Source: Ceratodon purpureus
Taxonomy: Eukaryota > Streptophyta > Bryopsida > Pseudoditrichales > Ditrichaceae
Length of the DNA stretch: 64,000 bases
NCBI GenBank assembly: GCA_014871385.1
Contig: CM026423.1
Coordinates: forward strand, 6,920,967-6,984,966
Reading direction: 5' to 3'
In this document: positions 13,199 to 17,846 of the stretch, piece by piece
Layout: every line of letters starts with the position of its first letter
Position numbering within the stretch: the first letter of the stretch is position 1
Program-made: the position numbers and the translations under genes
The notes under the pieces: model-generated
What the model saw: the letters and a program-made list of their open reading frames with translations, nothing else
Told to the model about the DNA's origin: nothing
Databases searched by the model: none

Positions 13199-16100
13199 TC
13201 AAAAGGTTTTCCTTCTTCCAGATATAATTTCAGTCATCCCAGTCGTTTCAGGTATTTGAAGAACCTTGTCGACTGTGAGGGCAACTTTGTCTCCAAATGA
13301 TTCATCTTCACCTCCAAAGTCTTCCAGCTCGAACCCGGCAAAGTTGTCGTCTTCATTATCTAACACGTCCACAATTCGAGCCATGGTGGGCCGCCTCTCT
13401 GGATCGTTCTGAGTGCACGAGAGACCAACTTTGATCAGCCGCTGTGCGTCCCGCTGCATTTCTTCGTCGGTTAAGTCCAGTGTGGCGTCGACCAGCTCCA
13501 TCAGCCTGTCTTCCGCATGCAGATGCCAGGCCTGCACAGGTAGAGGATTAGATTATTCTCCTTGCAAGTCCCTCGGTAATTCATCATGTTTGACATCGTT
13601 GCAAGAAGCATCCCAGACCTTGAAGGAGGATTAAGCTCCATCAAAATCACAGGCAATCATGTCACTCATTTCTACTATCTACCTGCATGCATGCCGAAGC
13701 AACCCAGTCGACCTATTTCGTGTTACAGAGAAATGCTGAAGTTGTGCGAGCACTGATTCACTGACTTGCAGAATGTGCACGACACCGTACAAATTAAACC
13801 AGACGTTCATGTCTAACATGCCTAACATCAGCTATGAATTTCCCAACGAAAGTACTACATATATGAGGACATAATGGAACAACCATTATGGACAGAAGGC
13901 GTACGTAATTGCGGAGATAGACTTGGCCCGGATGCGCAGTCTCGTCAATGTTACGTCGACCACTTATGATCTCCAAACACAAAACTCCGAAGCTGTAGAC
14001 ATCCACTTTGTCGCTCAGTTGCCCCAGTGATGCATACTCAGGGGCAATGTACCCTCTGCACACATCGTTGGCAAAATTAAGTCGATTCTGAACCTGGGCC
14101 AAAGGTTGTACATCAATTAAATGCAGAGCTAGGCTGAGCATATTCAAACATCGAAACTTGTACATGCTTTGTGCAACTCTGAAATAAAACATGTGGATGA
14201 ACACAAAATTTGCTTGATATTCTTGTTTAAAGTTTTAATTCTAAACATTTTTGCTCGTTGTCTTTTGTTCTTCTATTGTATGTACGTCAATCTAAAACAA
14301 AAAGAATAATTTGGAATACTAAGTCTCCTGCACTTTAGTTCCAGTTGGTGAAAGACGAACTCAAAACCTCTCACTAGCCTTGGAAACATTTATGTACATT
14401 TCAAAGCGTGCAAATGGTGCCTCAACTGCAACGAAGACCTGAGTCAATGTTAACACCAAACAAAGCAAAACTGCATTCCTTAAATGTAGAATAGACATTT
14501 CAACCGAGGTGCTTACTTTGTTCCAGCGACATTCATTGTTATGATATCGCCCTCTTCATCTGGGGAAAGACGAGCCAAGCCGAAATCCCCAATCTTGGGT
14601 TCAAGACTCACGTCCAACAAGACGTTGCTTGCCTTGATGTCTCGATGGATGATATTTGGAACCGCCAGTGCGTGGAGATAATGCAAACCACGAGCAATGC
14701 CCAGACATATTTTCACTCGCGCAGGCCAGCTAACAAACTGCCTTGTGCGTCCTTATAGACACACGAAATATGCTCAGTGTTAGTAATTTCAAGATGATAG
14801 TAAAGGCATGAAAGTCTGTACATTCGATGCCACTAACAGATGCCAAACACCTTCCAGTGGACAAATTAGTGCTAAACTCCAAATGTGAAGAGAATGATTG
14901 AGTTGGGGTCGAAATGGCGCTGCGGATATACCAAGTAGAATCCGGTCAACGTCGTAGTTGTCCACGTACTCGTACACCAATAACCTTTTTTCATTACGAA
15001 AGGAGCATCCTTTCAATTTCACCAGGTTTCGGTGCTTCATTCCTGCGATCAGGGCGATTTCGTTCAGGAATTCATTCAGCCCTTGTGATGTTTTGGTATA
15101 CAACAGCTTCACAGCCACCAAGTGTTCATTTGGCAGAATACCCTGCACGGTCAGAGAACCCACTCATAAGAGAGGTTGCGGTTTCGAACTACATCGAGTT
15201 GATGGTAGATGACTGTTGGTTCTGATAATTCATATGTGCTTCATAAATCGTGGACTATATAACTGTGAACAAACGATCAAATGTGCAACATACCTTATAC
15301 ACTGCTCCATAGCCGCCCTCCCCCAATTTCATCTCAGGGTGAAAGTCCCTTGTTGCTACCCGCAGTTCATTATAGGGAAAAATAGTCGGCTTGACATCAA
15401 ACTCTTCAAATTCTGCAGCATGCATGTATTAAAAGTGAACACGGAAGGTACGGAAGGAGGTAAAAGCACGGAAGAAAAATGCTCCGACTGAGATAGGATT
15501 GACTCACTCTCTTGTACTTGAAGCAGTAAATACCTCCGATATCTCCGTTTACGAAGATAATATGTTATTCCCAAAGTCAGAACGTCTCCCAAAAGTCGAC
15601 CGGCCGGCAGTACTACATCATCAACTAAATCTGTATCAACGACAGTATCATTAAAAAGATGAATCACTGTATTTATGATAAATTGTTATTTAAACTGAAC
15701 ATGCGATACTATTGTTAGAAAAAAACGTGTGTCGTTAATTACGAACCCTACATATTTTGTAGTGTTCTGTGCCACTTAAGATTAATTCTAATTTCACAAT
15801 CAGAACATAATTTACCACAAATTCTCATTCCAAATTTGCGACACTACAGTTGTTAAATCAGGATAGATCATGCGCTTATCACAAAGGGCCCTCGACTGTG
15901 ACAAAATTTCAATCTGACGCACAATAAAACCTTACCCCTAGGAGGCCCCCATGACTTGACACTACTCTCCACTAAACTTGTTGAAGGTTCCTCTGACCTC
16001 GAACTGCCCTCCTTTGCCCGCAAATTGCGCCATATTGTGCCAACTCCAAACCTGTTACCCAAACAATCTGCGCATCTTATCATCCCCACGTTGCAAGCTC

Positions 16101-17846
16101 CATTCCACACAGAACGAAACCCAACTCATGCCTGCTCAAGTTGAACATCCTCAGTATGATACCACATCAAAGCTATCTAGCTGCTACTAAATTTTCAACA
16201 GAGCAACTAATTTACCGTGATGTCATCTTTGCACCCTCCTGCAGATGCAATGAATGTACACCACTCTTCAATACATAGGCAGAAGAGGATTGGTACGCGA
16301 ACACAGGTTCAATGTCCATCGCGTCTAACAACCCCAAACTCAATAACTTCGCATGCCTCAGCATCCTGCACATATCGTAGAAACTCGGACGCTTCTGCGG
16401 TTGTAGTTCCCAACAACTCCTGATGCAGAACTGCAAATACTCAGGACATGCTTCCGGTAAACTTGGTCTCAGGCCATTCTTTATGATCCTTGTGTGCAAA
16501 GTTGGACGAGATTCGGCATCGAATGGCACTTCGCCGGTGAGGATCTCGGAGCATGTCATCCCAAAACTCCAAACATCAGCCTTCGGAGGAAAGCTCCTCT
16601 CTCGCAAAATCTTCTCCTTCTCGAATATCTCTGGTGCACCATAAACTGTTGTGCCTGTATTGCGAGTCAAGTCCCCAGTTTGGGAGGTATTCGCATACGC
16701 TTTGGCTGATCCAAAATCTGCCAGTTTCACCTCCAAATACCCTTCGCTGTGCAGCTCCAAATACCCCTCGCTCACTGGCTTCACGAGAATGTTGGAAGTC
16801 TTCAGGTCTCTGTGCGTCAACTTCTTCTCATGGAGTTCCCACATAGCTTGCGCCACCTGAAGCATGGTGTCGATTGCCACAGGCAACGAGAATGGCGTGC
16901 TGGGAATCACTCTCTTCTTCGACGGCACAACTAAACTCGACTGCCGCCTCAATACTTTCCGAATATGCTTCTGAAGATCAGTTGGCATCAGCTCCATTAT
17001 GATGCAAGAGTGCGGATCATCACGTTCACCATGCTCCTCCCAGTAGTGGAAAAGGCGGACAATTCTCGGATGTTGGAGCCGACCCAAAACGGTGGCCTCT
17101 GTCCGGTCGATCACCTCCAGTTTCTTCAATGCAAGCTCCTGTCCCAACCACTTTACTTGGAGGACCATGCCACTTGCACCTTTTCCCAAAGCCCTTGAAA
17201 ATGTCCAGGCATTCAATTGGTCCTCAACACTCTGCATTTCTCCTTCAGCAGGATTTAGCCATGATTTCAGGTATACTCGACGTATGTGGTCATCACCACA
17301 TTGATCCTCCTTCCCTCCTGAACTTGCGATCCTTTCGAGCAACTCCTTCTGGTCCTGACGAGATGCATCTCGGATTGCGTTTTGCATCTTGGAATGCTTC
17401 TTCAACAACCTTTGATAACCCTCTTCTCCACTTTCCCATATTTGCAATTGTGCATTCCTAGAACCCCCCGCGGAAGCACAGATGGCGATATCTAACACAA
17501 ACTTCCACTGGTGGAGATCCAATAGTATGGAAATGACCTCTTCTTGGGTGTCCCCCATCATTATTGCCACGGCAAGCCAAGAGGAATTCTCACAGCAACA
17601 CCTTTCCACCAACATGTGCGCGCGCTTCACAGTAGCATGCAAGTGGAGGAGCGCTGTCCTTTGAATGCCCCGATCAAAGTCATGAGCTCCTCTGCAATGT
17701 AAGGACTGTGATAGTTTCAATAGTTCTTGAGCCACATATTCGCACTGGCTTCTGTTCAGCTGGATTGTTGATGCGGCATCTCCGCCTTGCACCTTGTCTT
17801 GCACATACTGTATGCAATCCATCACAAGAGAGTGATGGTCCGCCAT
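13199..17846 (-). CDS. Tandem kinase A: DUF1221/HeLo-like helical domain + kinase + receptor-type kinase
   Basis: Eight exons: 16216-17846, 15936-16051, 15508-15630, 15294-15412, 14932-15142, 14517-14751, 13905-14055 and 13199-13531. They total 2,919 nt, 972 residues, with every phase consistent. Residues 1-205 are a Cys-rich helical domain ([22 protein letters not shown]) that resembles DUF1221, which I recall overlaps the HeLo region of plant MLKL proteins. Kinase 1 (214-505) has GKGASG, Lys241, HRD 345-347, DFG 377-379 and APE. Kinase 2 (about 650-930) resembles the LRR-VIII/DUF26 receptor group and has GEGGYG 654-659, Lys675, HRD 769-771, DFG 789-791 and APE. Both look active. If intron 1 is retained, a TAA inside the donor ends the protein after 544 residues with kinase 1 only. 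The exon 3 segment ([10 protein letters not shown]) is weakly hydrophobic and I doubt it spans a membrane. Two separate genes is the alternative reading. Confidence 0.75.

Follow-up and report, generated by a model that had tools for sequence, protein, structure and literature searches.

A moss gene of Ceratodon purpureus joins an MLKL-type kinase module to a receptor-type kinase across an intron whose first bases read as a stop codon

We analysed a window of 64,000 nucleotides (nt) from chromosome 3 of the moss Ceratodon purpureus, isolate KC19 (assembly GCA_014871385.1, contig CM026423.1, forward-strand positions 6,920,967 to 6,984,966), and in particular a gene on its minus strand, here called gene A (17846..13199). 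Gene A encodes a single two-kinase chain of 972 amino acids (aa), and the TAA that seems to end its first open reading frame (ORF) is intronic. Sequence, gene structure and predicted fold together give it the architecture of a plant-MLKL module followed by a linker and a receptor-type kinase. The model built from ORFs and splice sites has eight exons and 2,919 nt; all seven introns are GT..AG, and the frame is kept through to the stop at 13199. Exon 1 (17846-16216) ends CG^GTAAAT, where the caret marks the splice boundary, and exon 2 begins at 16051 after ACAG, so that the apparent TAA lies at positions +2 to +4 of an intron in phase 2. The original prediction, which had placed the TAA in an intron with its acceptor at 16052 and counted eight in-frame exons, was exact for the gene model. 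It had also proposed a two-kinase fusion, in agreement with the two PF00069 stretches that Pfam lists in gene A, as it does in its paralogue gene C, and with the annotated protein M758_3G077100 of isolate M758 (971 aa), which is 96% identical along the entire gene A protein.

By sequence and predicted fold, the N-terminal module is of the plant MLKL type, with a four-helix bundle and a brace. AtMLKL2/3 are the best or near-best PDB matches to its predicted fold. For kinase 1, the top PDB sequence match is AtMLKL3 (residues 205-501, E 9.1e-34), and AtMLKL3 and AtMLKL2 rank first and second among PDB sequences, which cover solved structures only, for both kinase 1 and the family profile. These matches bear out the earlier assignment of the N-terminus to the plant MLKL proteins. 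Its description as a DUF1221/HeLo-like helical domain is upheld as an MLKL-type bundle by fold, but not by a direct Pfam match: with E up to 10 allowed (most matches above 0.1 being filtered), neither the A and B N-termini nor the whole C protein had DUF1221 (PF06760) among the matches listed. The N-terminus of gene B matched MCAfunc at 0.012, below the Pfam cut-off, and for gene A Pfam lists kinase families only, the MLKL-type domain being seen by fold. Kinase 1 retains ALK, HRD, DFG and APE in gene A and in the near-identical protein P0001. By these motifs it is not a pseudokinase, in contrast to animal MLKL and the AtMLKLs, which PMC10951266 describes as pseudokinases.

By sequence and trees, kinase 2 of gene A derives from moss LRR-receptor kinases. 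It is 69% identical to the Ceratodon LRR-receptor kinase P0158 (M758_3G218400) and nests within a clade of Ceratodon and Pohlia LRR-receptor kinases. The first of the kinase trees comprised 57 rows with at most two domains per protein, and the tree for topology tests 31 rows, with P0069 left out; alignment A2, in which receptor kinases were aligned to kinase 1, was dropped and A3 used instead. A single clade of Ceratodon kinase-2 domains was not recovered, nor was it rejected by the approximately unbiased (AU) test (p-AU 0.167). The motifs of kinase 2 are intact in gene A. In gene C and its M758 counterpart the ATP lysine is lost (VAVT for VAVK), the glycine loop is altered and the DFG motif is lost (NFG, NFD). 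Judged by motifs, gene C is a kinase-pseudokinase, and in gene A both kinases have intact motifs.

The linker directly follows kinase 1 in gene A, and the receptor-like-kinase layout of signal peptide, ectodomain and membrane helix was not found ahead of kinase 2, the signal peptide being judged without a program score. Pfam lists no LRR or NB-ARC for gene A, and the linker holds no convincing membrane helix (best 19-residue hydropathy 1.28 in A and 0.55 in C); the gene A protein is probably soluble. In the predicted full-length structure of P0001 (overall pLDDT 72.8, pTM 0.56) the linker at 528-609 is disordered and kinase 2 is folded.

The window contains two paralogues, genes B and C. In all three genes a phase-2 intron, whose donor makes the apparent stop, lies right after kinase 1 with the partner downstream. 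All seven intron phases are common to A and C, and five of the seven introns fall at the same aligned codon. Gene B has introns 1 and 2 as in A and C, followed by its own short tail without a second kinase. The three copies can be matched to one another in exon 2 (RFG...I(W/R)RNLR) but not in the core of intron 1. Synonymous divergence (dS) between A and C is 0.85 in exon 1, 0.72 in the linker and 0.97 in kinase 2, similar values that are expected if the entire fused gene was duplicated. The corresponding ratios of nonsynonymous to synonymous divergence (dN/dS) are 0.23, 0.75 and 0.34, and exon 1 is under purifying constraint.

Gene B agrees with the annotated protein P0006 at 610 of 615 residues, and gene C with KC19_3G076400 (P0003) at 924/924 aligned residues, one extra residue being present in the gene C model. 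Isolate M758 further holds M758_3G076800 (970 aa), the C-type M758_3G077500 (971 aa) and the B-type M758_3G077300 (615 aa); like M758_3G077100, all are labelled 'hypothetical protein' by NCBI. Public annotation thus already contains the two-kinase fusion, under no name of its own, and Sphagnum has receptor-kinase fusions of its own, so the earlier impression that a moss fusion had not been seen before did not stand. Within the open-licence PMC literature, no moss MLKL-kinase fusion was named in the titles and abstract starts of the matches listed, and nothing was found on DUF1221 with Physcomitrella or on Ceratodon purpureus with tandem kinase. Two A-type proteins are listed for M758 and one gene A lies in the KC19 window; no close copy of gene A was found in the KC19 flanks searched, 110 kb on the left side of the window and 70 kb on the right.

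Two further observations concern these relatives. At window 58540-58760, gene C of KC19 stops at 58590 and a second frame just beyond reads a tail resembling the C-terminus of M758_3G077500; a frameshift close to the gene C end seems to separate KC19 from M758. About 100 kb from the window, at the far end of the left flank, in L020 (G000:C3:6810967-6820966, about 8303-10000, minus strand), two adjacent stretches are 28-31% identical to kinase 1 and perhaps represent another two-kinase or MLKL-like gene.

The joint was followed through a family of 103 members, taken from 244 proteins at an N-terminal profile E below 1e-30; 8 were dropped as lacking the motif at the kinase-1 end, 75 are unannotated and 20 annotated (marked from source names). 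The metagenome-called members stop abruptly past kinase 1. Their terminal residue is Arg in 47/75 ORFs, 17-45 residues beyond a landmark in kinase 1, against an Arg share of 5% among the residues of that stretch; in a smaller hand-listed set, 39 of 59 ORFs end in Arg. We paired Arg-ending ORFs with longer annotated relatives and obtained 42 close pairs (5 of the 47 had none), in which the junction residue is S in 19 and R in 10, as an (A/C)G^N junction requires. These 29 pairs rest on only 8 annotated relatives. For much of the moss family, a single conserved intron in phase 2 most likely supplies the apparent stop with its donor, the joint being read from DNA in A, B and C and deduced from proteins elsewhere. 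Besides the small number of relatives, this conclusion has to face the 28 of 75 ORFs that lack a terminal Arg and the 13 of 42 pairs with neither S nor R (10 against P0032, 2 against P0004, and P0005 against P0001). P0032 seems one residue short at the joint, and P0005 extends three residues beyond SR. That the moss family seems to keep this intron just past kinase 1 is new here.

Partners beyond the joint seem to vary and include a receptor-type kinase, GIL1/IRKI, PP2 and unnamed tails. The GIL1/IRKI C-terminal domain occurs in P0059, P0061 and P0067 (only P0067 passes the Pfam cut-off) and PP2 in P0124, which lacks the N-terminus. P0014 and P0015 carry an N-terminal extension on the same module; of the two, only P0015 has PF13519, a domain of vWA type, in its precomputed list. 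Sphagnum P0009 has the same layout as gene A, with kinase 2 cut short. One old fusion shared with Sphagnum was rejected for this protein, as a clade of its kinase 2 with those of Ceratodon received a p-AU of 0.0002; the tree places the acquisition of a receptor-type kinase in Sphagnum, for P0009, as an independent event. The second kinase stretch of Sphagnum P0069 is degenerate and long-branched, without HRD and DFG. The kinase-1 tree was built from P0043, P0044 and 50 of the 103 members of the family. A single clade of the six fused proteins is rejected on it (p-AU 5e-49), a value that alone gives no count of origins since P0005, P0007 and P0008, single-ORF calls placed among these six, may be shortened fusions. 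P0098 (Sphagnum) and P0114 (Ceratodon), from distant mosses, share a similar C-terminal tail (Y.LIGT.F..Y) attached to this kinase module. Beyond the kinase, Pfam lists nothing for either, and the tail is possibly an undescribed domain.

Gene A resembles several known systems in part. Pm13 of wheat/Aegilops is an MLKL_NTD-kinase resistance protein for which PMC10951266 describes one kinase; both proteins have an MLKL-type N-terminal bundle, a brace and a kinase with catalytic residues, but in gene A a kinase of receptor type follows beyond the splice joint. AtMLKL2/3 (PDB 6lba, 6ka4) are alike in the sequence of kinase 1 and of the family profile and in the N-terminal fold, whereas gene A keeps the catalytic motifs of kinase 1 and has a second kinase. 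Tandem kinase proteins (TKPs) such as WTK1/Yr15 and RPG1 also have two kinases per chain without a clear membrane helix. According to PMC6170490, 92 TKPs are of the kinase-pseudokinase type without an additional conserved domain; they fuse different kinase subfamilies, LRR_8B being common, and include one from Physcomitrella. Gene C is similar to them in its kinase-pseudokinase motifs. Gene A, compared with the TKPs as presented there, has the MLKL module in addition and intact motifs in both kinases. The moss LRR receptor kinases represented by P0158 share a clade and the above identity with kinase 2, but gene A has neither their LRR ectodomain nor a clear membrane helix. Physcomitrella kinase-NBS-LRR proteins, e.g. 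PpC24 as portrayed in PMC3991678, likewise join an N-terminal kinase to a partner of immune type in a moss; NB-ARC and LRR are what Pfam does not list for gene A.

With moderate confidence, we favour a reading in which gene A combines the plant-MLKL module, a flexible linker of ~90 residues and a complete kinase domain from a moss LRR-receptor kinase, the fused kinase serving as regulator or sensor. The MLKL module would be the part that executes or signals, working at membranes or as a signalling kinase, and kinase 2 would regulate it or sense from within the chain. In cis, an active kinase 2 of gene A may hold the MLKL part or phosphorylate it, and the degenerate kinase 2 of gene C could act as bait or brake. 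By analogy with Pm13 and the kinase fusion proteins of wheat, control in cis is rated most likely, and the mechanism proposed for A and C agrees with the wheat kinase-fusion idea that an extra domain senses the effector and the kinase signals. Several points tell against this proposal. The kinase-2 tree joins A and C in only 8% of 200 bootstrap trees, and kinase 2 of A and C possibly came from two fusions. The P0001 model, with its pTM of 0.56 and disordered linker, is uninformative on domain contacts, and dN/dS between A and C is uninformative on the constraint of gene C kinase 2 alone. Cell-death and immune functions of gene A are putative, the immune one being drawn by analogy.

The main rival, which we consider somewhat unlikely, is a real fusion with no immune or death role, that is a housekeeping or developmental signalling kinase. 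The catalytic motifs kept in kinase 1, unlike in animal MLKL and the AtMLKLs, and the purifying constraint on exon 1 would suit such a role. It fits less well with the MLKL fold and sequence of the N-terminal module, with the copy make-up of the cluster, which differs between M758 and KC19 over the window and the flanks searched, and with varied partners on one module, as in immune receptors with integrated domains.

Rather doubtful is a one-chain arrangement like the animal RIPK-MLKL pair, where an active receptor-type kinase would act in cis, the conserved intron would be a socket for repeated partners and its retention would free the executioner. If this were true, moss lineages would have plugged in receptor kinases at least twice, as well as GIL1/IRKI-type, PP2-type and other tails. 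We are no more inclined to believe that regulated retention of intron 1 switches the gene from a two-kinase form to a single-kinase MLKL and back. Such a switch had been suggested from the clean single-kinase product, and retention does give clean products in all three copies (544 aa in A, 543 aa in B and 547 aa in C). The argument is weak, since a phase-2 intron with an (A/C)G^GTAA donor makes the immediate stop automatic with no selection needed. By hand count, +5G is present in 0/3 intron-1 donors and in 12/13 other donors of A, B and C (11/13 with the donor that annotation gives for C intron 2). The missing +5G is the only hint of regulated splicing, and a weak one as the three copies share ancestry and their donors are not independent.

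Two adjacent genes, the first an MLKL-like kinase of one exon that ends at 16212 and the second a downstream remnant of a receptor-type kinase, are highly improbable and were rejected: the 544-codon frame is clean and stop-terminated and, by eye, intron 3 has an ATG that shares the frame of exon 4 and could open a form with kinase 2 only, but both isolates have annotated fusions (M758 of A-type and C-type, KC19 of C), exon 2 is conserved in three paralogues including B without kinase 2, exons 2-3 have no in-frame Met, and by eye C has no counterpart of the intron-3 ATG at the matching place.

Table 1. Features of genes A, B and C, in window positions
Feature	Position	Strand	Basis
Gene A exon 1: MLKL-type helical domain, brace, kinase 1	16216..17846	-	ORF, splice model, AtMLKL matches
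Predicted MLKL-type four-helix bundle and brace, about aa 1-210 of gene A	17217..17846	-	
Gene A kinase 1, about aa 218-495	16362..17195	-	catalytic motifs; AtMLKL3 PDB sequence match
Gene A intron 1, phase 2; first bases GTAA produce the apparent TAA	16052..16215	-	
Gene A exon 2, linker	15936..16051	-	RFG...I(W/R)RNLR core common to B and C
Gene A exon 3, linker (disordered, then helix)	15508..15630	-	splice model; predicted structure of P0001
Gene A exon 4, kinase 2 begins	15294..15412	-	splice model
Gene A exon 5	14932..15142	-	splice model
Gene A exon 6	14517..14751	-	splice model
Gene A exon 7	13905..14055	-	splice model
Gene A exon 8, includes stop	13199..13531	-	splice model
Gene A kinase 2, LRR-receptor-kinase type, aa 648-916, exons 4-8	13370..15341	-	Pfam, P0158 identity, trees; coordinates derived by hand from exon lengths
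Gene B, 615 aa, one kinase and short tail	22764..25008 (exons 25008-23381, 23216-23128, 22894-22764)	-	
Gene C, kinase 2 with pseudokinase motifs	54497..58590	+	equals KC19_3G076400 (P0003) except one residue
Gene C exons 1-4	54497-56136, 56319-56395, 56552-56638, 56805-56923	+	
Gene C exons 5-8	57084-57324, 57478-57706, 57872-58025, 58360-58590	+	

By sequence, the MLKL cluster is interleaved with a lectin-kinase cluster. On the minus strand, a legume-lectin receptor kinase with lectin and kinase parts lies at window 2586-4721 and another, with its lectin part in a single frame, at 27034-28224; lectin-type and kinase stretches also occur in the left flank (L009). An ORF for a SINA-type zinc finger (E3 ligase-like) lies at 21096-21875 on the plus strand, ~0.9 kb past the gene B end and opposite to it. 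Just 3' of the gene A stop, at least 171 bp (12900-13070; a lower bound, as the query ended at 12900) are 98.8% identical to 8678-8848, 4 kb away, which we read as a repeat of recent origin or the end of a transposon.

In flowering plants, MLKLs and tandem kinases are known as two distinct themes of immunity outside the NLRs, and the moss protein would unite both. Gene A, gene C with its pseudokinase and gene B with no second kinase may offer a natural series in which to ask how a fused kinase switches an MLKL. Since single-ORF gene calls are cut at kinase 1 by the splice joint, such partners can be missed in mosses.
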